Assembly (NCBI RefSeq): GCF_002937075.1
Contig: NZ_NHSJ01000070.1
Span: 1-56,415 of the forward strand
DNA: 56,415 nt
Direction of reading: 5' to 3'
From: Rhodoblastus sphagnicola
GTDB taxonomy: Bacteria > Pseudomonadota > Alphaproteobacteria > Rhizobiales > Beijerinckiaceae
Below are positions 22,075 to 47,188 of the stretch, one piece after another (within the stretch, counting starts at the first letter, position 1; each line of letters opens with the position of its first letter). A model generated the notes under the pieces. The model searched no databases. It saw only the letters and a program-made list of their open reading frames with translations, and was not told the DNA's origin. Position numbers and translations under genes: made by a program.

Positions 22075-22611
22075 TTATGCGGCGTGGGCGGCGGGGGCGG
22101 CGGCGGCAAGATCCCGCCACCAGTTTTCCAGCGCCGAAAACTCGGGCGCGATTTCCTCGGCGAGGTCGCCGGCGAAACGCGCCCAGTCCTCGCGCAAGAC
22201 CGGATGCAGCGTGGTGACCACGGGAACGCCGGCGTCGAGCGCGGCGCAAAAGGCGTCGCGCAGGCCCCCGCCCCCGGCTTCGAGCTTGCCGAACTTGCTG
22301 AGCACGACCATGTCGGCGCCGGATTTCAGCGCGCGCTGCACGGCGGCGCAGGCCAGCGCGACTCCGCCGGGGTCGAGGTTGCAGGCGGTCGAGCCCGGCC
22401 CGAGATTTTGCGAGATTTTTATGCGGGCGCCGGTGGCGAGATCGGTGACCGCGAGTTCGCCGCAGGCGCCGGCGCCGGGGTCGCGCGCCTCGACCACGCC
22501 GACGACGCGAAAACCCTCGGCGCGGCGCCGTTCGATGAAATCGCCGATCACGCCGCGTTTCCCGGCGCTGTCCGCGCCGCCGACCGCCACGATGGAAGCT
22601 CTGGCGTTCAT
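22075..22611 (-). CDS. DUF2478 family protein (putative metal-linked NTPase-like)
   Basis: 178 residues matching the DUF2478 pattern: an N-terminal ADSAGKRGVIGDFIERRR phosphate-loop-like start, DLATGARIKISQNLGPGST, GADMVVLSKFGKLEAGGGGL and GVPVVTTLHP. DUF2478 genes are typically linked to molybdate transport. A sigma-54-type promoter lies about 50 bases upstream. A diverged copy of the same domain is fused to DUF364 in the gene at 30815, which links the two operons. Confidence 0.8.
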   Translation of the reverse strand: MNARASIVAVGGADSAGKRGVIGDFIERRRAEGFRVVGVVEARDPGAGACGELAVTDLATGARIKISQNLGPGSTACNLDPGGVALACAAVQRALKSGADMVVLSKFGKLEAGGGGLRDAFCAALDAGVPVVTTLHPVLREDWARFAGDLAEEIAPEFSALENWWRDLAAAAPAAHAA

Positions 22612-25042: not shown

Positions 25043-25569
25043 GGGGAGGCTCCGGTTGACGAAAGGGAGAGGGAAAGGCGCGGGGTTTTTCGCGCGCGCG
25101 GCGCGCCCCGCGCGAACGCGGGCGAAAGCAACGCAAAGGTGAATACGGATAGGCGTCACGACGTCATCCATGATTACATGAGGCGTCGCGCGCTGCGCAC
25201 AGGTTCGCTTCGGCCTGAGCGGAACACTTCCGCCGCAAGCCGTCACAAACCCTGGGCGCGAACCCTTAGAGACCTCTGATTTCCTGGCTAAAAATTTCTA
25301 GGGCTTGGCCGCAAGGATTCAATAAGAATTATGACAACATTTCAAAGGCGAATAGATTCAATTGCACTACGCTGTATTTTTGCAACAGGTGTTCTGACTA
25401 CATATTCATCACATTGCGAAGAATGGGTCCACAACGCCCATTCGACATGCGCGCCGGAAGGCTTTCTTCAGCACCTTGGCTGAGCAATTCTGCTTCATAT
25501 TGTCGCAACGACTCGTGTCGGCTATGTCCAAGCCCGAAGCCAATTCTGGCGAACGGATGGAACGTTGAC
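25043..25569. other. Divergent intergenic region between TonB receptor and mosBA
   Basis: 527 bases with no supported gene. The stretch 25280-25400 is clearly A/T-rich compared with its surroundings (for example AATAAGAATTATGACAACAT) and probably holds the mosB promoter. I saw no good -24/-12 sequence, no convincing molybdate-regulator palindrome and no riboswitch core that I recognise. Confidence 0.6.
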
Positions 25570-26379
25570 ATGGCCCAGACGCATACGGATCTCGAAGCGT
25601 TGCTGATGCAGCGTTCGCTGACCGACCCCGAACTGCTGGCGGCGGCGGAGAAATCCGCCGATTATCGCATCCTGCCCGACGCCTCCGTCATAAAGATCGG
25701 CGGCCAGAGCGTGATCGACCGGGGCCGCGCCGGCCTCTACCCGCTGGTGGACGAGATCGTCGCCGCCCGCAAGAACCACAAGCTTCTGATTGGCACCGGC
25801 GCCGGCACCCGCGCCCGCCATCTCTATTCCATCGCGGCCGGTCTTGGCCTGCCGGCGGGCGTGCTGTCGCAGCTCGGCGCTTCCGTCGCCGACCAGAACG
25901 CCGCCATGCTCGGTCATCTCCTGGCCAAGCACGGCATTTCGCTGGTGGACGGGGCCGGTCTCTCGGCCGTCCCGCTCTTTCTCGAAGAAGTCCACGCCGT
26001 GATCTTCAGCGGCATGCCGCCTTATCAATTGTGGATGCGCCCGGCGCCCGAGGGGGTGATTCCGCCCTATCGCACCGACGCCGGCTGCTTCCTGCTCGCC
26101 GAAACCTTCGGCTGCAAGCAGATGATCTATGTGAAGGACGAGAACGGCCTCTATACCGGCAATCCCAAGACCGACAAGGCCGCGACCTTCATCCCGAAAA
26201 TCTCGGTGGACGAGATGAAGGCCAAGGGCCTGCATGATTCGATCCTGGAATTCCCCGTGCTCGACCTGATCAAGACCGCCCGCCACGTGCGCGAGGTTCA
26301 GGTCATCAACGGCCTCGTCCCCGGCAATCTCACCCGCGCGCTCGCGGGCGAGCATGTCGGCACCATCATCACCGCTTGA
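25570..26379 (+). CDS. mosB: Molybdenum storage protein subunit MosB (beta)
   Basis: 269 residues very close to Azotobacter vinelandii MosB as I recall it: [74 protein letters not shown] and [20 protein letters not shown]. MosA and MosB form a hexameric cage of amino-acid-kinase fold that binds ATP and stores polyoxomolybdate or tungstate in the cytoplasm. The start at 25570 matches the family N-terminus. mosA follows after 11 bases. In a V-nitrogenase locus the cage might also see vanadate; this is not shown by sequence. Confidence 0.93.
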
Positions 26380-26390
26380 GGGGAAACGCC

Positions 26391-27206
26391 ATGACCAACA
26401 CGATAAAGCATGTGGCTTCGCCTCTCGCGCGGCAAACCCTGCTCGACAGCAGCCTGACCAACCCCGTCGCCGGCCGCAAGCCGATCCGCCTGCTGCCCTG
26501 GCTGCAAGTGATCAAGATCGGCGGTCGCTCGATCATGGATCGCGGCGCCGAGGCCATCCTGCCGGTGGTCGAGGAGCTGCGCAAGCTGCTGCCCGAGCAT
26601 CGGCTGCTGATCCTCACCGGCGCCGGCATTCGCGCGCGCCATCTCTACGGCGTCGGCCTCGATCTCGGCCTGCCCGTCGGCGCGCTGGCGCCGCTCGCGG
26701 CGAGCGAAGCCGGCCAGAACGGCCATATCCTGGCCTCGCTGCTGGCGTCGGAAGGGGTGTCCTATGTCGAGCACCCCACCGTCGCCAACCAGTTGGCGAT
26801 CCATCTCGCCTCCGCCCGCGCGGTGGTGGGCAGCGCCTTCCCGCCCTACCATCACCATGAGTTTCCGGGCTCGCGCATTCCCACCCATCGCGCCGACACC
26901 GGCGCCTTCCTGGTGGCCGACGCGCTCGGCGCCGCCGGCCTGACCATTGTCGAGGACGTGGACGGGGTTTACGACGCCGATCCCGCCCGCGCCAAGGACG
27001 CCAAGCTGCTGAAGGAGGTTTTCGCCGCCGATCTGGCCAAGACCGAGGGGCCGCTGCCGTTCGACCGCGCCTTGCTCGACGTGATGGCGAATGCGCGCAA
27101 TATCGAGCGCGTGCAGGTGGTCAACGGTCTCGTGCCCGGCCGCATTACCGCCGCCTTGCGCGGCGAGCATGTCGGCACGATCGTGCATACCGGCGCCGGG
27201 CGCTGA
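26391..27206 (+). CDS. mosA: Molybdenum storage protein subunit MosA (alpha)
   Basis: 271 residues. [100 protein letters not shown] and [20 protein letters not shown] match the MoSto alpha subunit. The YHHHEF cluster corresponds to the histidines that nucleate polymolybdate in MoSto. It lacks UMP kinase substrate motifs. It is the second gene of mosBA and is followed by a strong terminator. Confidence 0.93.
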
Positions 27207-27389: not shown

Positions 27390-28211
27390 TCAAAACCCGC
27401 GCAACATCGCGCGCCGCAGCGTCGCGCCGAAAAAATTCACCAGCGTGATCAGCGCCAGCAGCACCAGGATCAGCGCCGACGCCTCGCGATATTCGAACAG
27501 GTGGAAGGCGGTGACGATTTCCAGCCCGAAACCGCCGGCGCCGACAATGCCCAGCGTGGTCGCGGCGCGCAGATTGTGTTCGAGACGGTAGATCAGCGCG
27601 TCGGTGAGGCGCGGCAGCGCCTGTGGCAGCAGCGCGAAGCGGAACACGCCGAGACGCGACGCGCCTTGCGCGCGCAGCGCCGCGCCGGGGCCGGGTTCGA
27701 CATGCTCCAGCGCCTCGAAAAACAGTTTGCCCAACATGCCCGTGGAATGGACCCCCAGCGCCAGCACGCCGGGCAGCGGGCCGAACCCCACCGCCGCGAC
27801 AAAGATCACGCCCCAGATCAGGCCGGGCAATGAGCGCACCGCGCCGAGCCAAAAACGCACGGTTTCGTTGAGCCAGACCGGCGCGCCCGCGTTGCGCGCG
27901 GCCAGCGCGGAAAGCGGCAAAGCGAGGGTCGCGCCGAGCGCGGTGCCGGCGATCCCGGTGGCCAGGGTTTCCAGCAGCGGACGGCCCCATTCGCGCCAGC
28001 GGGCGAAATCGGGCGGGAAAGAATCCTGCGCCAATTGCGCGATGGTTGGGAGGGCGTCGGCGTAACGCGAAAAATCGAGCGCGCCGGCATAGGCGAAGGC
28101 GGCGATAACCGCCGCCGTCGCAAGAAAAATCGCGGCCAGCCGTCGCGTCTGGCGGCGGCGCCATTCTCCGGCGAGCGCGTCATAAGCGGCGGGCTGGGCC
28201 ATTTCCGTCAT
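27390..28211 (-). CDS. Phn-type ABC transporter permease
   Basis: 273 residues with about six membrane segments and the binding-protein-dependent permease loop (ALRAQGASRLGVFRFALLPQALP, EAA-like motif near residue 190) typical of PhnE. It overlaps the binding protein gene by four bases (ATGA). With the two upstream genes it forms a complete phosphonate/phosphite-type importer. No C-P lyase genes are present, so phosphonate use is not supported. Vanadate, a phosphate analogue, is a plausible substrate given the neighbours (inference). Confidence 0.88.
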   Translation of the reverse strand: MTEMAQPAAYDALAGEWRRRQTRRLAAIFLATAAVIAAFAYAGALDFSRYADALPTIAQLAQDSFPPDFARWREWGRPLLETLATGIAGTALGATLALPLSALAARNAGAPVWLNETVRFWLGAVRSLPGLIWGVIFVAAVGFGPLPGVLALGVHSTGMLGKLFFEALEHVEPGPGAALRAQGASRLGVFRFALLPQALPRLTDALIYRLEHNLRAATTLGIVGAGGFGLEIVTAFHLFEYREASALILVLLALITLVNFFGATLRRAMLRGF

Positions 28212-29116
28212 CGCGCGGCCGGGCCTTCGACCGGCTTCCACGCCGTCTGGGCGCTCACGGCCTGGATGGCGGCGATCCATTGGCGCACGCGGTCCACGTC
28301 GGCGTCCACGGCGGGGATGAAGGCCTCCGCGCGGAACACGGCCAAGGCGGCGGGGTCCTTGACCTCGATGAAGGCCTTGCGGATCTCCTCCTGGAAGGCC
28401 GGGTCGAGGCCGTCTCGAAACGTCCACATATATTCGGGGATCGGGGGGGAATCCTGCAACACCCGCACTTTGGCGGCGTCGATCTTGCCCTCCTTGATCA
28501 GCCGGTTGAACACCGGCTTGGACAAGCCGCCGGCGGCGACCTTGCCATTGGCGACGGCCAGGGCGACAGCGTCATGGGCGCCGAGCACGCGCAGCTTGTA
28601 GTCGCGCTCCGACACCAGCCCCTCATGCAGCAATTGCCAGCGCGGAACCCAGGTGCCCGAGGTCGAGGCCGGGTCGCCGAACGCGATCTCGCCGCCTTTC
28701 AAATCGGCGAGGGTTTTTGCCTTGCTGTCGGCGGGCACGATGATGGTGGCGAGGAAAGTGGGGCCGACCTCGGGGTGGCTCGGCCGCGCGAAAGGCTTCA
28801 GCCCGACATGCTTTGACTGAAGAATATAGGTGACCGGGCCGAGATAGGCGATGTCGATGCGCCCGAACCGCAGCGCCTCGGAGGTCGCGGCGTAATTGGC
28901 GCCGACCACCACTTCCACCGGCAGGTTCAGCCGCTGTTCGAGATAGGCGCGCAAGGGTTCGTTGAGCCGCATCACCGTGGGGGCGGATTCCGTCGGCAGC
29001 AGGCCGATCACCAGTTTTTTCGGGCGGGCCGCTTCTCTGGCCGCCTCTTGCGCGAGCGCCGGGCTGGCGAGCAGCACGAGCGCGCCGAGCGCGAGGCGGC
29101 GGGAAAATTTCAGCAT
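28208..29116 (-). CDS. PhnD-like periplasmic oxyanion-binding protein
   Basis: 302 residues. The signal peptide MLKFSRRLALGALVLLASPA is cleaved near ALA/QEA. The mature part matches the phosphate/phosphite/phosphonate binding family: LVIGLLPTESAPTVMRLNEP, NYAATSEALRFGRIDIAYLGP (the DIAYLGP motif lines the anion pocket), DLKGGEIAFGDPASTSGTWVP (serine-rich oxyanion contacts) and FRDGLDPAFQEEIRKAF. It lies between the ATPase and permease genes with 1-base and 4-base junctions. The ligand could be phosphate-like, including vanadate. Confidence 0.9.
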   Translation of the reverse strand: MLKFSRRLALGALVLLASPALAQEAAREAARPKKLVIGLLPTESAPTVMRLNEPLRAYLEQRLNLPVEVVVGANYAATSEALRFGRIDIAYLGPVTYILQSKHVGLKPFARPSHPEVGPTFLATIIVPADSKAKTLADLKGGEIAFGDPASTSGTWVPRWQLLHEGLVSERDYKLRVLGAHDAVALAVANGKVAAGGLSKPVFNRLIKEGKIDAAKVRVLQDSPPIPEYMWTFRDGLDPAFQEEIRKAFIEVKDPAALAVFRAEAFIPAVDADVDRVRQWIAAIQAVSAQTAWKPVEGPAAR

Positions 29117-29117
29117 G

Positions 29118-29945
29118 TCAGCTTCCTTTTGTGTTGGGGGTTGACGTGAAGACGCTTGCTTCGGCTTCCGCGTCAAAAATTTCGGCGGGGCCGTCGAACA
29201 CGACGCGGCCGTCGTTGAGGCCGACAATGCGGTCGGCGAGCGCGCGGGCCAGCGCGATCTGGTGCAGGACGAGGACGAGCGTGACGCCGTCGCGCACCGC
29301 CAGCGCGCGCAGATCCTGGCCGAGGCGGCGCGCCAGCGGCTGGTCGAGCGAGGAAAACGGCTCGTCGCCGAGCAGCAGGCGCGGCCCGCGCGCAAGCGCC
29401 CGGGCGATGCCGATGCGCTGGCGCTCGCCGCCGGAAAAATTTTCGACACGGTCGAAGGCGCGGTCGAGCAGGCCGACATCGGCGAGGGCCTTGGCCGCCG
29501 CCTCGCGCGCGAAACGGGGCCAGGGGAAAGGTGACAGCGGGTGGCGCGATTCGGCGAAGGCGAGCAGGACATTGTCGAGCGCGCTGAGGCGGCCGATCAG
29601 GGCGTGATCCTGAAAGATGGTCGCGGTGTGCTGGCGCAGCGCGGCCCAAGAGTCTGAACTGCGCAAGGAGTCCACGCCGTGCGGCGCGCCAAAATCGTGC
29701 GCGAAAACCTCGCCGCCGGTCGGCTCGACCAGGCCGTTAAGGACATTGAGCAGCGTGGTCTTGCCAGCGCCGGAGGGGCCGACCACCACCGTGACAACGC
29801 CGGCGGCGAAAGCGGTGGAGACCTGCCGCAGGATTTGGCGCCCGCCGCGCGTCACGCACAGGCCGTCCACCGACAGCGCGGGCGTGGCGGGACCGGGCAG
29901 CGGCCAGCAGGCGACGGGATTGGGGACGAAATGAAGCATGGACAT
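29118..29945 (-). CDS. PhnC-like ABC transporter ATP-binding protein
   Basis: 275 residues: Walker A VVGPSGAGKTTLLNVLNGLV (about residue 56), Q-loop IFQDHALIGRLSALDN, signature ENFSGGERQRIGIARALARG, Walker B LLLGDEPFSSLD and switch histidine LVLHQIALA. Start at 29945 chosen for its GGAG ribosome site; 29996 is possible. It energises the permease at 27390. It is the first gene of a tight three-gene importer operon. Confidence 0.9.
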   Translation of the reverse strand: MSMLHFVPNPVACWPLPGPATPALSVDGLCVTRGGRQILRQVSTAFAAGVVTVVVGPSGAGKTTLLNVLNGLVEPTGGEVFAHDFGAPHGVDSLRSSDSWAALRQHTATIFQDHALIGRLSALDNVLLAFAESRHPLSPFPWPRFAREAAAKALADVGLLDRAFDRVENFSGGERQRIGIARALARGPRLLLGDEPFSSLDQPLARRLGQDLRALAVRDGVTLVLVLHQIALARALADRIVGLNDGRVVFDGPAEIFDAEAEASVFTSTPNTKGS

Positions 29946-30675: not shown

Positions 30676-30769
30676 CGTCAAAAGGACGTTCGCGCACGAA
30701 CGCTTCCGCGCGGCGGGCCGGGGCGGCGAAGCTGTGGATTTTCAGGCGTTTCGCCGGGGCTCTCGACTC

Positions 30770-30784
30770 TGGCCCGGTGCTTGC
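30770..30784 (+). promoter_or_regulatory. Sigma-54 (-24/-12) promoter of the seven-gene operon
   Basis: TGGCCCGGTGCTTGC has GG-N10-GC spacing and the TTGC of the -12 element. It ends 30 bases before the ATG of the DUF364 gene, giving a leader of about 20 bases. This places the unknown operon in the nitrogen-fixation type of control. Confidence 0.7.
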
Positions 30785-30814
30785 TGTAGTCAGATTACAC
30801 ATTCTGGACTGCCC

Positions 30815-32047
30815 ATGCCCGAAACGTCACACCGCCCCCAAATGCAAAGCGCCGCGCCCGCGCCGACCCCTGCGCCAATCCCTGCTCCGGCCTGGCTGAG
30901 GCCGGGTGTCGTGGTTCACGACCCCTCCGTGATCGTCGATCGGCTGATCGTCGATTTCGCCGCGGAATTGCGGGCGCGCGGCTTTGTCACGCAGGGGTTT
31001 GCGCGTCAGGGCGCGGTGGTGATTGGCGAGTCGCCGCTCTCCATCGATCTCTCCAATGGCAAGACCTTCGTCGAGACTCCGCAAGCCGCCGAAATCCATC
31101 TGGCGCGGGCGATCCGCGACGGCGCCGATCTGTTCGCCGTCGGCCGCTTCCCCGGCTGCACCGATGCGGCGCGCGCCTCGAAACTGCCGGTCGGCGCCGG
31201 CGCCGGGCGCGGCCTGCCGCTGCTCACCACCATAGCCGGCGGCGCCATTCACCATTGGCACCAGTTCGTGCGCCATGAAGGCTCGATGATCGCCCCCAAT
31301 CGCCGCGCTTTGTGGGAATGGTGGGGCGCCGAGCGGCTCTATGACGATCTCGCGCTTGGGGTCGCCGAGGTGGAGACGCGCCGCATCGTCTGCGGGCCGC
31401 GCTGGCTGATGGTGGAAGGCCCCCACGGCGCCGGCCTCGCCTATCTGCCGCGCCATCCGCGCGAATTGCTGCCGCGCCTGCCCGAATTGTCGAAACTTTC
31501 GCTGCGCGCGCTCGCCGCCCTTTGCCAGTCGTGGAATCCGCTGGAGGCGGCGGTCGGCGTCGCCGCCCTCAACGCCTTTTACAATCGCGTCGATCTCGAC
31601 GGCGCCTCCGGCAATGGCGTGCGCGGCTTTCGCGGCGCGCCGGGGCCGGTGGTGGTGGTCGGGGCCTTTCCCGGCGTCGATTCCATCCTGCCGGATTGCG
31701 CCATTATCGAGACCGATCCCCGCCCCGGCGAATATCCGGTGGCGGCGATGGAATCGCTGCTGCCCGGCTGCGGCGGCGCCATCGTCAATTCCTCGGCGCT
31801 GATCAACCGCAATCTCATCCGCATCCTGCGCCTCGCGCGCCATCGCCCGGTCGCGCTGATCGGCCCCTCGACGCCGCTGACGCCGCGCCTGCACGATTAC
31901 GGCCTCGCCGTGCTCGGCGGCTTTGTGGCGCGCGACGTCGAGGGGCTGGCGCAGGCCGTGCGCGCCGGCGCCGCGCCAAAGGATTTTTCCAGATTCGGTC
32001 GCTACATCCATCTCAGCGACGAAACTTCGGCGCCGAACAAGCGCTGA
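30815..32047 (+). CDS. DUF2478-like / DUF4213 / DUF364 fusion protein
   Basis: 410 residues. After a proline/alanine-rich N-terminus, residues about 30-145 resemble the DUF2478 protein at 22075: LRARGFVTQGFARQGAVV with an S-x-DLSNGK stretch, then AIRDGADLFAVGRFPG and GLPLLTTI, parallel to GADMVVLSKFGK and GVPVVTTL. Residues about 220-275 (LAALCQSWNPLEAAVGVAAL) are DUF4213-like. From about 285 comes DUF364 (VVVVGAFPGVDSILPDCAII, AIVNSSALINRNLIRILRLA), annotated in families as a putative heavy-metal chelation domain. It is the first gene after a sigma-54-type promoter. Function unknown; metal or cofactor handling is inferred from domain and context. Confidence 0.8.
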   Translation: MPETSHRPQMQSAAPAPTPAPIPAPAWLRPGVVVHDPSVIVDRLIVDFAAELRARGFVTQGFARQGAVVIGESPLSIDLSNGKTFVETPQAAEIHLARAIRDGADLFAVGRFPGCTDAARASKLPVGAGAGRGLPLLTTIAGGAIHHWHQFVRHEGSMIAPNRRALWEWWGAERLYDDLALGVAEVETRRIVCGPRWLMVEGPHGAGLAYLPRHPRELLPRLPELSKLSLRALAALCQSWNPLEAAVGVAALNAFYNRVDLDGASGNGVRGFRGAPGPVVVVGAFPGVDSILPDCAIIETDPRPGEYPVAAMESLLPGCGGAIVNSSALINRNLIRILRLARHRPVALIGPSTPLTPRLHDYGLAVLGGFVARDVEGLAQAVRAGAAPKDFSRFGRYIHLSDETSAPNKR

Positions 32048-32134
32048 AGCCCAACACCGACGCGCGCGCGTCCGATGCGGCATGAGCCGTTTTCCGCAAA
32101 AATCGCCAGACCCCTCTGGCGAGAGGAGATCGCC

Positions 32135-32383
32135 ATGCGCCCAGAAATCCTTGTCAACACCTGTGTCGCCGCTTTGCGCCTCGACGGCTGCGGCGCCGAG
32201 GCCATCGCCTTCCTGCTCGCGGAAAGCGCGGTGGACGCCCTGACCGCCGCCGGCCTGCGCACTGAGAATTTCGAGGGCGGCGTGGAGCATCTCGTCAGCG
32301 CCATGCGCGAGCGCGCCGCCGACCTGCGCGCCATGCACAGCCGCCCCAACCTGATGCTGGTGGCGAACCGCGAAAGCGCGTGA
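32135..32383 (+). CDS. Small protein of unknown function in the sigma-54 operon (82 aa)
   Basis: The ATG at 32135 has a strong ribosome site (GAGAGGAG). The 82-residue product begins MRPEILVNTCVAALRLDGCG, is predicted mainly helical, and has two cysteines eight residues apart near the N-terminus. It lies 87 bases after the DUF364 gene and 113 before the ATP-grasp gene in the same direction. I do not recognise the family. Confidence 0.6.
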   Translation: MRPEILVNTCVAALRLDGCGAEAIAFLLAESAVDALTAAGLRTENFEGGVEHLVSAMRERAADLRAMHSRPNLMLVANRESA

Positions 32384-32496
32384 CGGCGCCTTTTTCCGGC
32401 GTTTCGCACATGCGCGTGCGAAATCCGCGCTAAACTCCCGCCCGCGCCTTTGGCCCGACGCTTGCTCCGCCAAGGCGCGCGGAAGGACATTCGACC

Positions 32497-33525
32497 ATGA
32501 ACGATCTGACGCAAAAAATCCTGCGGCCCGCCAACCCCTCGGCGACGCGCATCTTCTTCCTCGCGCGCTCCGCGCCGCTGGCGCCCGAGTACGCTGTCGC
32601 AGCCTATCCCGGCGACGGCGGCTATCCCGCCTATTATCACCGCATTTTCGAGGCCCTGCGCGATCTCGGCTATCGCGTCGCCACCTCGAACCAGTGCCGC
32701 GCGCTTTATACCGAGGCCCACGAGATCGATCTGGTGTTCTCGCTCTACAACCGCATGGCGATCGACAATCCCGAAATCTTCGTCGCCTCGTCCTGCGAAT
32801 ATCTGCATCTGCCGATGGTCGGCGCCAAGCCGAACATTCGCGCGCTGGCCGAAGACAAGTGGATCACCAAGCATTTCGTCCGCTCGCTCGGCCTGCCGGT
32901 CGCCGAGGGCGCGATTTACTCCCGGCCCGAGGATTTGGCCGCGCCGCCCGCCTTCGCCGGCCCCTATTTCGTGAAAAACCGCTTTGGCGCAGCCTCCGAA
33001 GGCGTCTCGGAGGATTCGATCCAGGACGATTGGGAGGGCGCGAAAAAGGCCGCCGAAAAGCTGTTTTCGCGCGGCATGGCGGTGCTGGTCGAGCGCTTCG
33101 CGCCGGGTGTGGATGTGACCCTGCCGGTGATCGGCGCCGACGAGCCGATGATCCTCGATCTGGTGCGGCCCTGCTCCGACCGAACCGGGGAGATCATCAC
33201 CGAGGATTTGAAGCGCGACGATCCGCTCGGCTATGCTTTGTACGACGCCGGGGCGCGCTATGCCGATTTCGCCGGGGATGCGCGAAAACTCTGGGCGGCG
33301 GCGGGGCCGATCGATTATTTGCGGCTCGATTACCGTTTTGACGAGAAGACGGGCCAGCGGGTGTTTCTCGAATTCAACATCTGCTGCCACATCGGCCGCA
33401 GCGGCGCCATTTGTCTCGCCGCCGCGCAAAAGGGCTTGAGCCAGGCCGATTTGCTCGGCCATGTCGTCGAATTTTCCTTGCGCCGGCATTGGCGGGCGGT
33501 GGAGACGCGCAAATGGGTTCGGTAA
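32497..33525 (+). CDS. ATP-grasp ligase-like protein (D-Ala-D-Ala ligase fold)
   Basis: 342 residues. Central ATP-grasp features: DKWITKHFVRSLGLPVAEGA, the lysine strand GPYFVKNRFGAASEGVSEDS, the VLVERFAPGVDVTLPVIGAD strand, the YLRLDYRFDEKTG strand and a C-terminal EFNICCHIGRSGAI that supplies acidic/asparagine metal ligands (E-x-N). ATP-grasp enzymes join a carboxylate to an amine or thiol through an acyl phosphate. The substrate is unknown. It overlaps the next gene by 13 bases. Confidence 0.82.
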   Translation: MNDLTQKILRPANPSATRIFFLARSAPLAPEYAVAAYPGDGGYPAYYHRIFEALRDLGYRVATSNQCRALYTEAHEIDLVFSLYNRMAIDNPEIFVASSCEYLHLPMVGAKPNIRALAEDKWITKHFVRSLGLPVAEGAIYSRPEDLAAPPAFAGPYFVKNRFGAASEGVSEDSIQDDWEGAKKAAEKLFSRGMAVLVERFAPGVDVTLPVIGADEPMILDLVRPCSDRTGEIITEDLKRDDPLGYALYDAGARYADFAGDARKLWAAAGPIDYLRLDYRFDEKTGQRVFLEFNICCHIGRSGAICLAAAQKGLSQADLLGHVVEFSLRRHWRAVETRKWVR

Positions 33526-34595
33526 CTTCAATTCCGCTCGCAACCACCCCGCCGCCGCGCGCCTTCGGCGCGGCGCATGCGCCGCGCGCCACGGCGCGGG
33601 GCTGGGACTTTTTGGGCTGCTGCCCCGCGCCGCTGCGCATGAGGATGCGCGACGAACTCGCCGACCTCTTGCGCGAGCGCCAGTTCAGGCACGCCGAAAA
33701 GCTGAAATGCTGCATGCCCATGGGCCATGGCGGGCGCACGCCGTTCGAGCGGCTACGCCATATTCGCGAGCTGGAGGATTTTCCCAAACTGCTCGTCTCC
33801 AGCGATCATGGCAACGCCTTCAATCGCGCCTTTCACGCCCGCCATGTCGAGACCGGGGCCTTCGTCGCGCCGCAGCCGGCGGGTTTTGCCGACGCCTTCG
33901 CCGAGGCCGGGTTGATCGATCCGCGCGGCTGGATCGGGGTCTATGCCGTCGCCCCCTTCGTGCTGCTGGTCGATCGCGCGCGGCTCGGAAACCGGCCGGT
34001 TCCGCGAAGCTGGGCCGATCTCGCCGACCCCGTCTATCGCGGCGAGATCGCTTTGTCCGGTTGGCGGCCCGAGGGCGCGCGGCATTGGCGGGCGTTCAAT
34101 CAGTTTTTTCTCGTGGCGGTGGCGCGGCTGCTCGGCGACACGCTGTTGCGTGAGGTGCTGGCCAATCTCGCCGGCCTGACCCATTCCGCGCAAATGCCGC
34201 GCCTCGCCGGCACAGCCAATTCGCTCGCGTCCGTTTACGTGCTGCCGTGGTCGCTGGCCGACCTGTGCCCGCGCCGCGACCGCACCGAAGTGGTGTGGCC
34301 CGCCGAGGGGGCGCTGGCCTTTCCCTTGTGGATGACCGCGCAAGCCGCGCATCGCGAGCGGTTGGCGCCGTTGGCCGATTATTTCTTTTCGCCGGAGACG
34401 GCGCGCTGGCTCGATCACAACCGCTATCCCTCGCTGGCGGCGGGGGGAGCCGGCCTGCCCCAAGGCGCGCGTCTGGCCTGGCCGGGCTGGGATTTCTTGC
34501 GCGCGCGTTCGACGGCGGCGGAGATCAAGCGGCTGTGCGCCTTGTTCCATGCCGCCACCGAACAGCTCGACCGGAGGCAAAACCTATGCGCGTGA
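33513..34595 (+). CDS. Binding-protein-like (type 2 periplasmic fold) protein without signal peptide
   Basis: 360 residues from the ATG at 33513 (GGAG upstream). It resembles iron-type ABC substrate-binding proteins (SWADLADPVYRGEIALSG, WMTAQAAHRERLAPLADYFF), but the N-terminus has no hydrophobic export signal. Two cysteine pairs, LGCCPAP (36-37) and LKCCMPMGHGG (66-67), are unusual. No permease gene is in the operon, and the ABC ATPase two genes on is soluble. A cytosolic metal or cofactor carrier role is conceivable; function unknown. Confidence 0.75.
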   Translation: MGSVTSIPLATTPPPRAFGAAHAPRATARGWDFLGCCPAPLRMRMRDELADLLRERQFRHAEKLKCCMPMGHGGRTPFERLRHIRELEDFPKLLVSSDHGNAFNRAFHARHVETGAFVAPQPAGFADAFAEAGLIDPRGWIGVYAVAPFVLLVDRARLGNRPVPRSWADLADPVYRGEIALSGWRPEGARHWRAFNQFFLVAVARLLGDTLLREVLANLAGLTHSAQMPRLAGTANSLASVYVLPWSLADLCPRRDRTEVVWPAEGALAFPLWMTAQAAHRERLAPLADYFFSPETARWLDHNRYPSLAAGGAGLPQGARLAWPGWDFLRARSTAAEIKRLCALFHAATEQLDRRQNLCA

Positions 34596-35284
34596 TCACC
34601 GTCGCCGGCCCGCCCTCGGTCGGCAAGACCGCGCTGATTTTGAAGACCGCCAAAACCCTGGGCGATGACGGCCAGAAACTCGCGGTGGTGAAATTCGATT
34701 GCCTCTCCACCGACGACGATTTGCTTTACCGCCGCGCCGGCATTGCCGTGGCGGCGGGGCTGGCGGGTTCGGTCTGCCCCGACCATTATTTCGTCTCCAA
34801 TATCGACGATTGCCTGCAATGGGCTGAAAGCCTCGGCGCCGATCTGCTGATCGCGGAAAGCGCCGGTCTGTGCAACCGCTGTTCGCCGCATGTGCAGGGG
34901 GCGCTGGCGGTTTGCGTGGTCGATAATCTTTCGGGCGTGCATACGCCAAAGAAGATCGGCCCGATGCTGAAGATGGCCGATGTGGTGGCCATCACCAAGG
35001 GCGATATCGTCTCGCAGGCCGAGCGCGAAGTGTTCGCGCACAATGTCTGGCGCGCCAATCCGCAGGCGCGGATCGTCGCCTTCAATGGCTTGACCGGACA
35101 GGGCGCCGGCGAACTCGCCTTCGCCATGCGCGGCGCGCCCGATCTGGAAACGCTGGAGGGGCGGCGGCTGCGCTTTCCCATGCCGTCCGCGATCTGCTCC
35201 TATTGCATCGGCGAGACCTGCATCGGCGAAAATCACCAGCGCGGCAATGTGCGCAAGATGCGCTTTCCCGAGGTTCTGGCATGA
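34586..35284 (+). CDS. UreG/HypB-type P-loop GTPase with extra cysteine motifs
   Basis: 232 residues. P-loop GPPSVGKTAL (residues 8-17), KFDCLSTDDDLLYRR after it, Walker B-like DLLIAESAGLCNRC, and guanine-recognition-like ITKGD (137-141). This is the SIMIBI family of metallochaperone GTPases that load nickel into urease and hydrogenase. Extra cysteines form C96-x2-C99 and C204-x2-C207-x4-C212 (SAICSYCIGETCIGENHQRG), which could bind a metal or Fe-S cluster. It overlaps both neighbours, by 10 and 4 bases. The client enzyme is unknown; the nitrogenase context suggests a metallocofactor (inference). Confidence 0.82.
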   Translation: MRVITVAGPPSVGKTALILKTAKTLGDDGQKLAVVKFDCLSTDDDLLYRRAGIAVAAGLAGSVCPDHYFVSNIDDCLQWAESLGADLLIAESAGLCNRCSPHVQGALAVCVVDNLSGVHTPKKIGPMLKMADVVAITKGDIVSQAEREVFAHNVWRANPQARIVAFNGLTGQGAGELAFAMRGAPDLETLEGRRLRFPMPSAICSYCIGETCIGENHQRGNVRKMRFPEVLA

Positions 35285-36288
35285 GCGCGCATTTGCTGGC
35301 GTTAAAACTTGACGAGGCGCAACGGCTCAATCCCGCTTTCGCCGCGCTGATCGGTCCCACGCCAAAACCCGATCTGTCGCTGGCCGACTGGCTGGCATCG
35401 CTCGATGGCGGCGATCTCGACCGCCTGAAATTTTCGCGCATCGAACTGGAGGCGCATCTGCTGGCCCTGATCGCGGAAGCCGAAGGTTTTCGCACCCCCG
35501 TCACGCGTCTGCGCGAGCTGCGCATTCTCGGCGGGCGCGACAAGACCGGGGGCGCCGAAAATCTCGATCTCGTGCTGCGGCCGGGGGCCATTGTCAGCGT
35601 GGTCGGGCCGACCGGATCGGGCAAGAGCCGGTTTTTGGGCGACATCGAATGTCTGGCCCAGGGCGACACGCCGTCCGGGCGGCGCATTCTCATCGATGGC
35701 GAAATCCCGGACCCGGCGCGGCGCTGGGCGGCCAGCGGCAAGCTGGTGGCGCAACTGTCGCAGAACATGAATTTTGTCGTCGATCTCACCGTCGGCGATT
35801 TCATCGAAATGCACGCGGAATGCCGCGCCGTGGATGCGCCGGAACAAGTGGCGGCCGAAGTGATCGCCTGCGCCAACCGACTGGCCGGCGAGAAGTTTTC
35901 CGCGAACATTTCGCTGACGCAACTTTCCGGCGGCCAGAGCCGCGCCCTGATGATCGCCGATGTCGCGTTGCTGTCGTCCTCGCCGATCGTGTTGATCGAC
36001 GAGATCGAGAATGCCGGCATCAACCGGCGTCAGGCGCTCGATCTTCTCGTCGCCAGCGACAAGATCGTGCTGATGTCCACGCACGATCCCATCCTCGCGC
36101 TGCATGCGCAAAAACGCATCGTCATCGCCGCCGGGGCCGTCGCGCAAGTGATCGAGACCAGCGCGACCGAGCGCGCCCATCTCGCCGCGCTGGAACATTA
36201 CGACCGGCTCATGAGCGACTTGCGCGAAACCCTGCGCCATGGCGCGCGGCTGGAAACGCTGCCGCCGCAATTTTCTCCCTTCGGATAG
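35281..36288 (+). CDS. Soluble ABC-type ATPase with N-terminal extra domain
   Basis: 335 residues. The first 80 or so have no ABC match. Then Walker A VVGPTGSGKS (107-116), Q-loop glutamine in AQLSQNMNF, signature TQLSGGQSRALMIADVAL (215 on), Walker B IVLIDEIENAG and switch histidine STHDP. There is no membrane domain and no permease in the operon, so it may act on a protein or cofactor rather than in transport. It is coupled to the GTPase by ATGA and sits four bases before the nitroreductase. Confidence 0.82.
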   Translation: MSAHLLALKLDEAQRLNPAFAALIGPTPKPDLSLADWLASLDGGDLDRLKFSRIELEAHLLALIAEAEGFRTPVTRLRELRILGGRDKTGGAENLDLVLRPGAIVSVVGPTGSGKSRFLGDIECLAQGDTPSGRRILIDGEIPDPARRWAASGKLVAQLSQNMNFVVDLTVGDFIEMHAECRAVDAPEQVAAEVIACANRLAGEKFSANISLTQLSGGQSRALMIADVALLSSSPIVLIDEIENAGINRRQALDLLVASDKIVLMSTHDPILALHAQKRIVIAAGAVAQVIETSATERAHLAALEHYDRLMSDLRETLRHGARLETLPPQFSPFG

Positions 36289-36291
36289 ACC

Positions 36292-36840
36292 ATGAACGCC
36301 CTTGACCTTCTGCTCACCCGCCAGTCGATGCACGCGCTTCAGGCGCCTGGACCCGACGCCGCGCAACTCGATGTTATCCTGCGCGCGGCGCTGCGGGTTC
36401 CTGATTTTCAGAATTTGAAACCGTTTGAATTTGTGGTGGCCGAGGGCGAGGGCCGCGAAAAACTGGGCGCGCTGATGCAGCAGGCTGCGCGGGCGTCCGG
36501 GCGCGCGGAGGAAGACATCGCGCGCGCGCCGAAAATGCCGCTGCGCGCGCCGCTGGTGATCGTGGTGATCGCGCGCGCCAAGGCGAGCAAGCTTGTGCCG
36601 CTGTTCGACCAGCGGCTCGCCGCCGGCTGCGCCGTGATGGCGATGCAGATGGCCGCCTTCGCGCAGGGTTTTGCGGGCGTGTGGCGCTCGGGCTGGCCGA
36701 TGCATGACGACAATCTTCCGGCCCTGCTGGGGCTGGGGGCTGACGACCGCATCGTCGGTTTTCTTTATCTCGGCAGCGCGACCAAACCCTATCCGCCGCT
36801 GCCGACGGTCGATCCCGCCGCATTCACCCGTCGTTTGTGA
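36292..36840 (+). CDS. Nitroreductase family flavoprotein (YdjA-like)
   Basis: 182 residues, the short YdjA-type length. N-terminal LLTRQSMHALQAPGPDAAQL has the R-x-S flavin-binding start, with VPDFQNLKPFEFVV, PLVIVVIARA and GVWRSGWPMHDDNLPALLGL following. Such proteins bind FMN and transfer electrons from NAD(P)H. It is the last gene of the sigma-54 operon, and would supply reduction to whatever that system does (inference). Confidence 0.85.
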   Translation: MNALDLLLTRQSMHALQAPGPDAAQLDVILRAALRVPDFQNLKPFEFVVAEGEGREKLGALMQQAARASGRAEEDIARAPKMPLRAPLVIVVIARAKASKLVPLFDQRLAAGCAVMAMQMAAFAQGFAGVWRSGWPMHDDNLPALLGLGADDRIVGFLYLGSATKPYPPLPTVDPAAFTRRL

Positions 36841-37617: not shown

Positions 37618-37710
37618 AAGCGTTTTCAAGCGAAGTGGATTCCGGTTCGCGTGAAGAAAACGCGTCAAAACAGAAACCTGGAGCATGTTCGGTGAACCGA
37701 ACATGCTTCA
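37618..37710. repeat. Family D repeat followed by GCATGTTCGGT palindrome
   Basis: AAGCGTTTTCAAGCGAAGTG...CGCGTGAAGAAAACGCGTC is a full-length family D element; its inverse is at 44427-44480. It is followed by GCATGTTCGG-TGAA-CCGAACATGC, a near-perfect palindrome running into the stop of the next gene. Confidence 0.75.
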
Positions 37711-38601
37711 CGTCATGGGCTGGTTGATGTTGGGCTTCAGCCGGCCGAACTTTGTCTTGAACGCCGCCGGCAGCGACAGGGGATCGGGCGTGCGCGCCTC
37801 CCATTTCGGCAGGTCGGCGCGGGCGATCTTGCCGTCCTTCAGCGCCTCGACCGGAATGATGTGCAGCACGTCATGCAGCACGGCGTAGAAATCGATGGCG
37901 TAGCGCGCGCTGTCGCGATAGGGCGCGGGAATTTCGATCTCGACGTGGTCGGCCTCGAAGGTCGCCTTGGGATTGTCGCAGTCGAAGCGGAAATGGCGGT
38001 TGAAAGGGCCTTTGCGCTGGAACTGGTAGAGCGTTCGGCCCTCGTCGGCATAGCGCCGGATCTCGGCGTCGATGTCGAAGAACATTTCCGAAAACACGCG
38101 CTCCACGTAAGCCTCGGGATAGACGCTGTCGCGGGTGGAAAACCAATAGGCCACCATGGTTTCGATCAGGTCGAGTCCGGCGGCGGTAATGTCGAAATAA
38201 TAGACTTCCTTGCCGATCACGCCGCCCATGCAGATCACGCCATTGCGCATCTCGACCTGGCCATGCGGATGGAAGGCGATCAGGCGGATCAGCCGGGTCA
38301 GGCGGTGCAACTGGATGGTGATCTTTTCGACCAGGGTTGATTTGGGCAATTCCTTGGCGCGCGCCCAGGAGGTCAGCGGCAGGTCTGTCGGATAGAGGCC
38401 GGCGAGCGTGGCCTCGAACACGACGGCCGCGCGCGCGAGCGCCGCGATGCGCTCCAGCGGCGCCTCGTCCGGCAAGGGCGGCTCGTCGAAGGTCAGGACA
38501 CGCGGCTTGCTGTACAGCTCGATCTGGCGGTAGTCGGGCAGGCGCACCTTGTTCGACCAGCCAAAGTCCGGATTGGCGAAGAGTTTTGAAGTGAATCCCA
38601 T
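37708..38601 (-). CDS. vnf-associated protein of unknown function (297 aa)
   Basis: 297 residues with no signal peptide or membrane helix. Recognisable stretches are FANPDFGWSNKVRLPDYRQI, LHRLTRLIRLIAFHPHGQVE, ICMGGVIGKEVYYFDITAAG and a histidine-bearing AVLHDVLHIIPVEAL. I do not recognise the family. It lies between vnfK and the NifX-like gene, all leftward, so a role in VFe maturation or protection is likely by context only. The 205-base gap to vnfK holds hairpins but no clear promoter. Confidence 0.75.
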   Translation of the reverse strand: MGFTSKLFANPDFGWSNKVRLPDYRQIELYSKPRVLTFDEPPLPDEAPLERIAALARAAVVFEATLAGLYPTDLPLTSWARAKELPKSTLVEKITIQLHRLTRLIRLIAFHPHGQVEMRNGVICMGGVIGKEVYYFDITAAGLDLIETMVAYWFSTRDSVYPEAYVERVFSEMFFDIDAEIRRYADEGRTLYQFQRKGPFNRHFRFDCDNPKATFEADHVEIEIPAPYRDSARYAIDFYAVLHDVLHIIPVEALKDGKIARADLPKWEARTPDPLSLPAAFKTKFGRLKPNINQPMT

Positions 38602-38650
38602 GGTCGAACCTCTCCGTGGCACGCTCGGTCAATTCCCTCTCCCCGCAACG

Positions 38651-38806: not shown

Positions 38807-40294
<1,488 letters not shown>

Positions 40295-40302
40295 TCACGC
40301 GC

Positions 40303-42071
<1,769 letters not shown>

Positions 42072-42161
42072 TCACGGGGGGTGTGAGCTGAAAATTCAAC
42101 TGTTCTGGGTGCGGCGTCCGAAGGGGTCAGGACTGGGTCCGGCGCCGTCGGAACAGTGATC

Positions 42162-42176
42162 GCAGGAAGCGTGCCA
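42162..42176 (-). promoter_or_regulatory. Sigma-54 (-24/-12) promoter of vnfDGK
   Basis: On the minus strand TGGCACGCTTCCTGC matches TGGCACG-N4-(T)TGC with correct spacing. A small palindrome CCGATT-T-AATCGG (42185-42197) lies just upstream of it. Confidence 0.75.
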
Positions 42177-42362
42177 ACTGCTTTCCGATTTAATCGGATT
42201 ACATAATGAAAAGCGCCTTTTTTGCGGTTTTCCTTGGTTTCTCAGGCGTTACAGCCGCAGCATCCGGCGGGGCCGCTTGGGCGCCCGCCCCGGCGTTCGT
42301 TCGCGAACGTAAGAATCCGATTTGCGAAGACATTTCCGTCGCCCACCCCTCCGCACGGATCG

Positions 42363-42386
42363 GTACGATTTATTTCCTTTCCGTAC
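42363..42386. promoter_or_regulatory. Paired GTAC half-sites in the divergent vnfD / fusion-gene region
   Basis: CGGTACG and CCGTACG, with 16 bases between the two GTAC cores, lie 53-76 bases upstream of the rightward -24 element and about 190 bases upstream of the vnfD promoter. GTAC is the core of known VnfA sites, but the known spacing is 6, so this is tentative. The remainder of the 429-base gap holds no gene I can support. Confidence 0.35.
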
Positions 42387-42437
42387 GCATTGACGGAACG
42401 CAGGGCTGTGAAGACGCGGAATCGTGGGAAATTCATC

Positions 42438-42454
42438 TTGGCACGGCTGTTGCA
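42438..42454 (+). promoter_or_regulatory. Sigma-54 (-24/-12) promoter of the NifX-glyoxalase gene and vnfH
   Basis: TTGGCACGGCTGTTGCA is a full match to the consensus TGGCACG-N4-TTGCA. It ends 34 bases before the fusion gene ATG and is the best such site in the window. Confidence 0.85.
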
Positions 42455-42488
42455 ACTGCTGTCCTCGATCCCCAAGCGAGGTTTTCCC

Positions 42489-43322
42489 ATGCTGGATGAC
42501 GTGCTCGAAAAGACTTCTTCTTCCGCCAAGGGCGACGCCGGCAACGGCTTCTCCCTGCGCGTGGCGGTCGCCACGACGGGCGAGCGCGTCGATCTGCATT
42601 TCGGCCACGCCGAAGCCTTCACCGTTTATGACGTGGACGCCGGCGGCGCCCATCATGTGCAAACGCGCGGGATCGCCGAACACGCCCTCAATGAAGACGA
42701 GGATCCGCGCGAGACCATCTATCGCATGATCGCCGACTGCAAGGTTCTGCTGGTCGCCAAGGTCGGCGCCGCGCCGCAGGAGGCCCTCAGCAAGATCGGC
42801 GTCGATGCCACCAATATGTATGCCGGCAAGGGCGTCGAGGAGGCCCTGCGCGAGCTTTACGCCGCGAAAAAATCCGCCGTCGAGGATAGCGCGATCGACG
42901 CCAGCGAATTCTGCCTGATGCACGCCATGCTGCGCGTCGCCGACCTCGACCGCTCCATCGCCTTCTATACCGAAAAGCTCGGCATGACCGTGCTGGAGCG
43001 CCGCGAGCACAAGAAGAACCAGTTCTCGCAGGCCTATCTCGGCTACGGCGCCGGCATGACCATCGAACTGGTGCAGAACTGGCAGCGCGAGGGGGCTTAT
43101 GTCCAGGGCGACGCCTTCGGCCATATCGCCATTGGCGTCAACAACATCATGCGTCTTTGCGACCGTCTTGCGGCGGAAGGCGTGCCCATGCCGCGCCCGC
43201 CGCGCGCGCAAAGACATGGCGAGAATATCGTCGCCTTCATCGCCGATCCCGATGGCTACAGGATCGAACTGGTTCAAGCGCCAACGCCCGAACAAACGGA
43301 AGCGCTCGAAGACGCGAAGTAA
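42489..43322 (+). CDS. NifX-type cofactor-binding domain fused to glyoxalase I
   Basis: 277 residues from the ATG at 42489. Residues about 20-128 are a NifX/NifB-C-type domain (LRVAVATTGERVDLHFGHAE, FTVYDVDAGGAHHV, CKVLLVAKVGAAPQEALSKI). Residues about 143-265 are a glyoxalase I (GloA) domain: LMHAMLRVADLDRSIAFYTE, TIELVQNW, FGHIAIGVNN and FIADPDGYRIELVQ. The four metal ligands H145, E193, H212 and E260 are all present, with spacing 48/19/48 close to GloA. GloA isomerises the hemithioacetal of methylglyoxal. The gene has the strongest sigma-54 promoter here and sits 138 bases before vnfH, so it is an intended part of the V-nitrogenase system. Its joint activity is unknown. Confidence 0.88.
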   Translation: MLDDVLEKTSSSAKGDAGNGFSLRVAVATTGERVDLHFGHAEAFTVYDVDAGGAHHVQTRGIAEHALNEDEDPRETIYRMIADCKVLLVAKVGAAPQEALSKIGVDATNMYAGKGVEEALRELYAAKKSAVEDSAIDASEFCLMHAMLRVADLDRSIAFYTEKLGMTVLERREHKKNQFSQAYLGYGAGMTIELVQNWQREGAYVQGDAFGHIAIGVNNIMRLCDRLAAEGVPMPRPPRAQRHGENIVAFIADPDGYRIELVQAPTPEQTEALEDAK

Positions 43323-44333
<1,011 letters not shown>

Positions 44334-45231: not shown

Positions 45232-46848
<1,617 letters not shown>

Positions 46849-46943
46849 GCTGTGTCCAATCCCGAAAAGGCGCCCGGACGTGCGTGCGCGACGGCGGCCG
46901 CGCGTCGCTTTCGCGACGCCTCCGCTGGCGCAATGACATCCAA

Positions 46944-46958
46944 GCAAATTCCACGCCA
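46944..46958 (-). promoter_or_regulatory. Candidate sigma-54 promoter of vnfA
   Basis: On the minus strand TGGCGTGGAATTTGC has GG-N10-GC with TTTGC at -12, 95 bases before the vnfA ATG. It implies autoactivation or activation by a NifA-type protein. Confidence 0.6.
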
Positions 46959-47188
46959 TTTCCGTCTATCCAACACAGCGGGATAGCGAGCGCAATGGCG
47001 ATTTGTTCTCTGATTAACATTGTCGCATCTGCAACAAAAGGCATCAATGTAATCTTTTTACATAACGGTACGAAGCTCGCCGCTTCGTGCGAATTTGGCG
47101 CCGCTGCGTGCGCCTCCCCCTGCTATCACGCGGAGGATAAAGAGATTTTTCTCACATTTTGCAAGGCGTTCCGCGCTGCGGGCCGGAT

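Follow-up and report, generated by a model that had tools for sequence, protein, structure and literature searches.

An operon linked to the vanadium nitrogenase of Rhodoblastus sphagnicola, and its widespread core of a cytosolic binding protein, a GTPase and a soluble ABC ATPase: a probable nitrogenase accessory system and possible vanadium handler

What is the role of a gene string that stands under a sigma-54 promoter beside a vanadium nitrogenase (V-nitrogenase) and encodes a ligase, a binding protein, a GTPase, an ABC ATPase and a reductase, with no permease among them? We addressed this question for an operon of Rhodoblastus sphagnicola, contained in a stretch of 56,415 nucleotides (contig NZ_NHSJ01000070.1), hereafter the window. 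Seven open reading frames (ORFs), all on the plus strand, were found there. The first encodes a DUF2478-DUF4213-DUF364 fusion with only the second half of DUF2478 (Pfam; 30815..32047), and this is followed by an 82-amino-acid protein with no Pfam or NCBIfam match (32135..32383), an ATP-grasp ligase of the D-Ala-D-Ala-ligase-like kind (Pfam; 32497..33525), an SBP_bac_6 binding protein (SBP) without a signal-like segment (Pfam and structure model; 33513..34595), a HypB/UreG-type GTPase (Pfam cobW/HypB/UreG, curated families and alignment; 34586..35284), a permease-free ABC ATPase (ABC_tran, by Pfam and alignment; 35281..36288), and an NAD(P)H nitroreductase-like protein (curated family match; 36292..36840). 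The cytosolic SBP, the HypB/UreG-like GTPase and the soluble ABC ATPase are here called the core. A preliminary description, made from the same DNA, had named these ORFs, their families and the promoter, and all were confirmed; the analysis of ORFs and Pfam domains likewise bore out that the window's gene string holds no permease. Of the mostly overlapping genes it had reported, overlap was found at three of the six junctions, whereas gaps of 87 and 113 bp follow the first and second genes.

The operon very probably has an accessory function for the V-nitrogenase. What the sequences themselves show is which genes it holds and which orthologues they have, the control sites, the coupling to VnfD, the cytosolic location, and the invariant residues. 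The V-nitrogenase genes lie at 38.8-50.0 kb of the window, with VnfD and VnfG above the family cut-offs and VnfK, at 862 bits, slightly below its own (874). When 120 related genomes were searched with the ATP-grasp gene, the only operon gene sought genome-wide, orthologues with 88-89% identity were detected in three congeners, all adjoining vnf and with the same gene order except for the 82-amino-acid gene. VnfD scored above its family cut-off in four of the 120 genomes, exactly R. sphagnicola itself (G000) and the three operon-bearing congeners, so the association claimed in the preliminary description was upheld. The other seven congeners gave matches to the VnfD model at the NifD/NifE level only, and no match to the ATP-grasp gene. 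One further genome (G101) carried an ATP-grasp gene of 61% identity, alone among unrelated genes and with no close ABC ATPase orthologue (best E 6e-13), and its nitrogenase alpha chain was of the Anf type and not the Vnf type. Matches in 84 more relatives were weak (E 1e-30 at best, 21-40% identity, often partial) and not counted; we treated them as probable ordinary ATP-grasp homologues, and the best of them (G105) had no other operon gene in its 20-kb stretch. The 82-amino-acid gene was found in one of the three congeners and, being missing from two of the four species, is hardly essential; we therefore rejected its product as a necessary part, and the description of a seven-gene system had to be reduced accordingly.

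The same coupling was observed over a wider range. Among 299 Pseudomonadota, GTPase relatives at E <= 1e-20 were present in four genomes, two with the type studied here (R. sphagnicola and G272) and two with more distant proteins of 36-37% identity (G127, where only the ABC ATPase and GTPase were sought, and G158, where both are accompanied by an Fe-S-domain protein). A nitrogenase alpha chain was above cut-off in 39 of the 299 genomes; the two core-bearing ones were both VnfD-positive, and the other 37 lacked a GTPase of this type and reached at most about 665 bits, the NifD range on the general alpha-chain model, which was applied to them in place of the VnfD model. Within Pseudomonadota, the set thus follows vnf rather than nif, as had been anticipated, and a role as a Mo-nitrogenase accessory was rejected there, since nif-only genomes were without the GTPase. 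The operon of G272 comprises ATP-grasp, SBP, GTPase, ABC ATPase and nitroreductase genes on a contig other than that of vnfD, with no DUF364 match on that contig. A test independent of the operon was also carried out by searching 397 genomes of the order for VnfD: R. sphagnicola and G779 alone were above cut-off, and in the latter, a single case, an SBP-GTPase-ABC-nitroreductase string adjoins vnfEN about 7.5 kb from vnfD. A quick tree of 81 GTPase sequences, with long branches elsewhere and with G272 left out, placed the Pseudomonadota in one group of 16 rows (SH-aLRT 94) beside three Deferribacterota; 15 of these rows came from VnfD-positive genomes and one from a genome not searched. Two further copies were noted. 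G779 has a second SBP-GTPase-ABC set (L144 9044-17346) that runs into FecB, FecCD, FecE and a TonB receptor, and R. sphagnicola has a second, related pair of an ABC ATPase (44%) and a GTPase (39%) at L037 12177-15755 (G000:C34), neighboured by a NifS-like desulfurase (by reading), a PF04060 Fe-S protein similar to that of G158 and, in divergent orientation, a sigma-54-type regulator.

Control sites point in the same direction. The -24/-12 promoter TGGCCCGGTGCTTGC (30770..30784, plus strand) was recognized by pattern match and conservation: the pattern TGGCNCN5TTGC has five occurrences in the window where 1.09 would be expected, a number reached in one of 100 shuffles, and two congeners have the promoter at the corresponding position, while the third (L034) has it with one fixed base changed. 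Upstream, at 30688..30701 on the plus strand, a VnfA-type palindrome, GTTC-N6-GAAC, occupies a matching position in each of the four operon-bearing species, starting 79-82 bp before the sigma-54 promoter. It resembles the published VnfA1 motif, GT(T/A)C-N6-GTAC (PMC9542535). The number of palindromes in the window was by itself not above chance (three against 1.15 expected and, with one mismatch, 33 against 20.7), and the support for a putative VnfA-type site is its conservation and position, not motif number. The sites kept in the four species would give the operon the combined sigma-54 and VnfA control of its Azotobacter counterpart, and the proposed nitrogen-fixation type of regulation gained support. 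A second sigma-54-like site, TGGCCCGACGCTTGC (32451..32465, plus strand), precedes the ATP-grasp gene by 31 bp; of the three congeners, one has it (L032, and not L033 or L034). Because of this site the operon may comprise two transcription units, and its designation as one operon is to be qualified.

The operon is the alphaproteobacterial version of an accessory operon published for Azotobacter. In A. vinelandii, Avin_02430-02390 are described as a VnfA1- and sigma-54-dependent operon of unknown function (PMC9542535), conserved, except for its last gene, in Proteobacteria with V-nitrogenase (PMC9542535, citing Addo & Dos Santos 2020). Both operons share the sigma-54 promoter, the occurrence with V-nitrogenase and the order of binding protein, 'nickel binding GTPase', ABC ATPase and nitroreductase, and this order was also seen in Azotobacter chroococcum (L063) and Azomonas (L053). 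Since the same operon has been published, the link to V-nitrogenase was already known; 'of unknown function', the term of the preliminary description, is also that of the paper, but the operon and its VnfA1 control had been reported. New here are the difference in ligases, the multi-phylum core, its two non-overlapping contexts and the conserved VnfA-type site. Unlike in A. vinelandii, the R. sphagnicola core is preceded by the DUF364 fusion, the 82-amino-acid gene and the ATP-grasp gene, and there is no terminal glutamate-cysteine ligase; the window gave no GCS2 match at E <= 1e-5 and has the ATP-grasp ligase upstream instead.

The ligases differed by lineage. Outside the genus, ATP-grasp genes were detected in five of the six VnfD-positive alphaproteobacteria searched (G272, G405, G406, G408 and G417) and in none of six beta- and gammaproteobacterial genomes. 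All five gammaproteobacterial loci had a GCS2-family protein directly after the nitroreductase (family checked on one), and two betaproteobacterial loci end before that position. Among 86 sequences examined, ATP-grasp and GCS2 never occurred in one locus, and the nitroreductase was present in 14, all from Pseudomonadota. Thus, the ATP-grasp ligase of the alphaproteobacteria stands in place of an unrelated GCS2-type ligase in the gammaproteobacteria. This is a new finding: PMC9542535 reports that the terminal ligase gene of Azotobacter is not conserved outside this genus, and our literature search, in which only that paper turned up, found none on an alternative ligase in alphaproteobacteria. 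The search also found nothing that links DUF364 with nitrogenase, DUF1858 with the hybrid cluster protein (Hcp), or this parts list. The orthologues found for the DUF364 fusion, whose solved relatives are 3l5o and 3npg, were all alphaproteobacterial (the three congeners and loci L046, L048, L050 and L060). Both this gene and the ATP-grasp gene are lineage-specific, a further point against a fixed set of seven genes. A full-length, stand-alone DUF2478 protein is encoded at 22075-22611 of the window (minus strand), with 27-29% identity to the N-terminal part of the congeners' fusions. A search of plasmids with the ATP-grasp sequence gave six remote matches (19-27% identity), and the one opened lies among unrelated genes.

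The core proteins were then inspected for residues, folds and location. In 81 sequences of the GTPase, C64-P-D-H67, C96-N-R-C99, C110 and C204-x-Y-C207 were invariant, a total of six cysteines, and together with the P-loop these candidate metal-binding residues suggest a GTPase of the G3E metallochaperone type. UreG (5xkt) and HypB (2wsm) were its only solved relatives at E <= 0.001, in line with the type first assigned to it. UreG and HypB have Cys/His metal sites of comparable kind. The protein was rejected as either of them proper, as it scored below both cut-offs (TIGR00073 HypB, 51.5 against 121.2 bits; UreG, 28.1 against 204.2 bits). It shares the P-loop GTPase domain and candidate Cys/His ligands with the UreG/HypB/COG0523 metallochaperones (PMC9164220), and differs in the invariant CxxC99, C110 and CxYC207 and in being partnered with an ABC ATPase and a binding protein. 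By reading of the alignment, the ABC ATPase has the Walker A, Q-loop, signature, Walker B and H-loop motifs. Soluble ABC ATPases of the SufC type are likewise permease-free among cofactor-related genes, but the partners here are a GTPase and a binding protein, and a fold search with the model did not favour the SufC type over transporter ATPases (SmsC2 ranked 39). The binding protein is more variable (model pLDDT 86.5), and a PDB sequence search with a single one gave no match. A signal-like segment, defined as a mean hydropathy of at least 2.0 over 12 residues within the first 45, was present in none of 74 core binding proteins and in 22 of 24 importer binding proteins, consistent with the earlier remark that a signal peptide is absent. 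Two non-proteobacterial binding proteins (L061, L094) carry an N-terminal DUF1858 domain.

These features led us to a mechanism, NTP-driven cytosolic handling of imported vanadium, whose chances we regard as even. Vanadate would enter through the neighbouring PhnCDE-type ABC importer, a divergent set of genes (27402..29942, minus strand; by profile) that is VodABC-like, a name taken from PMC9542535, and putatively transports vanadate; the operon would act afterwards. The VupABC and VodABC vanadate importers (PMC4284476, PMC9542535) are vanadium- and vnf-linked too, but have a permease, whereas the operon has neither a permease nor an exported binding protein. Inside the cell, the metal might be kept soluble by a small peptide-like ligand, the product of the ATP-grasp ligase or, in gammaproteobacteria, of the GCS2-type ligase, and/or through reduction by the nitroreductase. 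The signal-less binding protein would hold the metal-ligand complex, and the Cys/His-bearing GTPase and the soluble ABC ATPase would drive its hand-over to FeV-cofactor assembly on VnfEN. Cargo, ligand, reduction, direction and target are what we infer here. How vanadium reaches VnfEN inside the cell is, to our knowledge, not established, and the VnfA1-dependent operon is a prime candidate for this delivery.

The core was also examined beyond Pseudomonadota. A scan of one genome per species over 84,980 species gave at least 573 relatives, and the loci described are the best 80, the nearest and not a random sample. Their ORFs run from the first possible start, which makes some N-termini too long, and contig ends can hide neighbours. 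The names ModA, ModB, FecB, FecCD, PhnD, PhnE, Rrf2, SAM methyltransferase and NifS are readings of ORF-cluster sequences; ModE, Hcp, AnfO, GCS2 and FeS were checked by profile on one member each and DUF1858 on two. The loci span many phyla, and core relatives co-occur in many anaerobic microbes. By ORF clustering, the ABC ATPase was found in 76 loci, the GTPase, the best conserved member, in 76, the binding protein in 73, and all three in 66. A nitrogenase alpha chain was detected in 29 of the 49 locus genomes searched, many of them metagenome-assembled and possibly incomplete; 14 of the 29 were VnfD-positive, among them each of the 11 Pseudomonadota searched. Among 245 Clostridia, the GTPase was found in 14, the alpha chain in 18 and both in four (Fisher p 0.013), with a GTPase profile that covers both GTPase types, its matches not being sorted by type. 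The two highest alpha-chain scores (685 and 691 bits) were both in GTPase carriers, G431, which is VnfD-positive, and another that was not scored for VnfD. AnfO-like genes adjoin the core in Clostridia (L076, L083, L085, L089 and L101; family checked on L101), and in the L089 genome nothing matched the VnfD model at the Vnf or Anf level. In a plasmid collection the sole GTPase match (61%) was at 2085587-2086276 of NZ_CP084075.1 (H7), a Fusobacterium entry classed as a plasmid whose size, 2.1 Mb, suggests a chromosome.

The core occurred in two separate contexts. Twenty-two of the 80 loci contained parts of a metal importer (ModAB, FecB/FecCD or PhnDE), and 36 contained Hcp, a regulator of the Rrf2 type or an 80-amino-acid Cys-rich protein; no locus had both and 22 had neither. 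The chance of zero overlap is 8e-8 if loci are independent, a value that is too small since the genomes are related. Nitrogenase genes were in nine loci, none from the Hcp/Rrf2/Cys-rich group, and nitrogenase was detected in four of the 18 searched genomes of that group versus 25 of the remaining 31. The clearest string, SBP-GTPase-ABC-ModE-ModABC-nifHDK, was in a member of the Geobacteraceae (L111). The 80-amino-acid protein, of no family, recurs in L086 (6106-6345) and 32 other loci; in those that were drawn it follows the ABC ATPase, and it was in no importer- or nitrogenase-linked locus among the 80.

Several observations weigh against the vanadium mechanism. No nitrogenase was detected in 20 of the 49 core-locus genomes, and 10 of the 14 clostridial GTPase carriers lacked one; the core alone is not nitrogenase-specific, and vanadium therefore cannot be its general cargo. 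The preliminary description had held that occurrence mostly in organisms without nitrogenase would contradict it, and this is partly so for the three-gene core outside Pseudomonadota but not within them. Three Nostoc plasmids with vnfD had no such GTPase, the search covering the plasmids and not the chromosomes. The G779 genome had no ATP-grasp or DUF364 gene within the 100 kb examined, and no ATP-grasp orthologue was found in G404, a metagenome-assembled genome; the ligase is therefore not universal. Among known structures, the model of the binding protein comes closest to proteins that bind ferric iron, sugar phosphates or pyridoxal phosphate, which makes iron or an organic phosphate a possible cargo. 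Finally, in L116 and L119 the gene immediately ahead of the GTPase encodes a FecCD-type permease, and the core may have a closer tie to transport there.

The make-up of the core, in which a binding protein of the cytosol is joined by a G3E-like GTPase rich in cysteines and an ABC ATPase that lacks a permease, and its position next to importers of three families fit the handling of a metal after import; the V-nitrogenase branch adds a ligase, a flavin-type reductase and VnfA control. It is possible, and we propose it tentatively, that the core is an unrecognised, widespread, NTP-driven cytosolic machine for metals or metal cofactors that succeeds several importer families, and that the lineage-specific ligase of the V-nitrogenase branch, ATP-grasp or GCS2, makes a peptide-like vanadium ligand, bridging vanadate import and FeV-cofactor assembly. 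If true, this would add to the few NTPase metallochaperone systems and be relevant to engineering alternative nitrogenases. The ligase swap, the invariant candidate metal sites and the exclusive contexts provide concrete tests in a tractable diazotroph.

A different view, in which the core repairs or supplies iron or Fe-S clusters, for nitrogenase metalloclusters here and for Hcp elsewhere, vanadium being incidental, appears unlikely but has several points in its favour: the nearest folds of the binding protein include ferric-binding proteins of the FbpA/FutA kind, the related pair at L037 is accompanied by the Fe-S protein and the NifS-like desulfurase, and 36 loci combine the core with Hcp, the Rrf2-type regulator or the small Cys-rich protein. 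In FbpA ferric-binding proteins, adjacent tyrosines hold Fe(III). This pair is not kept in the core binding protein, which has Val-Leu opposite it in a profile alignment to SfuA, a comparison at the sequence level; moreover, the operon of Pseudomonadota follows vnf and not nif, though nif needs Fe-S clusters too. Still less probable is that the operon senses vanadium or another metal, the binding protein reporting metal status to VnfA-type activators with the GTPase and ABC ATPase as switches. As a precedent, VnfZ, a paralogue of VodA that lacks a signal peptide, controls the activity of VnfA3, with which it interacts (PMC9542535), and the binding protein studied here has no signal-like segment either; however, a sensor would have no use for ligase and reductase genes, and VnfA-like matches were found in just three of the 80 core loci. 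An ordinary importer with its permease encoded elsewhere is very improbable and was rejected: annotation assigns the binding protein and the ABC ATPase to a transporter and FecCD precedes the GTPase in the two loci mentioned, but a signal-like segment is absent from all 74 core binding proteins, the gene string in the window holds no cognate permease, the GTPase is in the same string, and each importer-linked locus looked at (L081, L111, L116, L119 and G779) has a separate importer-type ATPase.

Regarding the surroundings of the operon, the V-nitrogenase region has the order NifX-like protein, 304-amino-acid protein, vnfK, vnfG, vnfD, NifX-like/glyoxalase protein, vnfH, VnfA-type activator, vnfE and vnfN. 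Profiles assigned vnfK, vnfG and vnfD on the minus strand and the NifX-like/glyoxalase protein and vnfH on the plus strand (38807..44333), with vnfH scored as NifH family. The NifA/VnfA-type enhancer-binding activator (45232..46959, minus strand) reached 484 bits on TIGR01817, below the NifA cut-off of 529. Between vnfD and vnfH, positions 42222-43322 (plus strand) encode a protein called as a fusion of a NifX/NafY-like with a glyoxalase-type domain. An Rfam scan of the window gave an rpsB small RNA match only. The 304-amino-acid protein after vnfK (37708-38622, minus strand) has no Pfam or NCBIfam match and is found beside vnf in other genomes with 35-87% identity. On the other side of the operon, positions 25414-27206 (plus strand), flanked by a TonB receptor gene and the vanadate-type importer, encode two tandem proteins of the amino-acid-kinase fold, which by sequence reading are of the molybdenum-storage (MosA/MosB) type.

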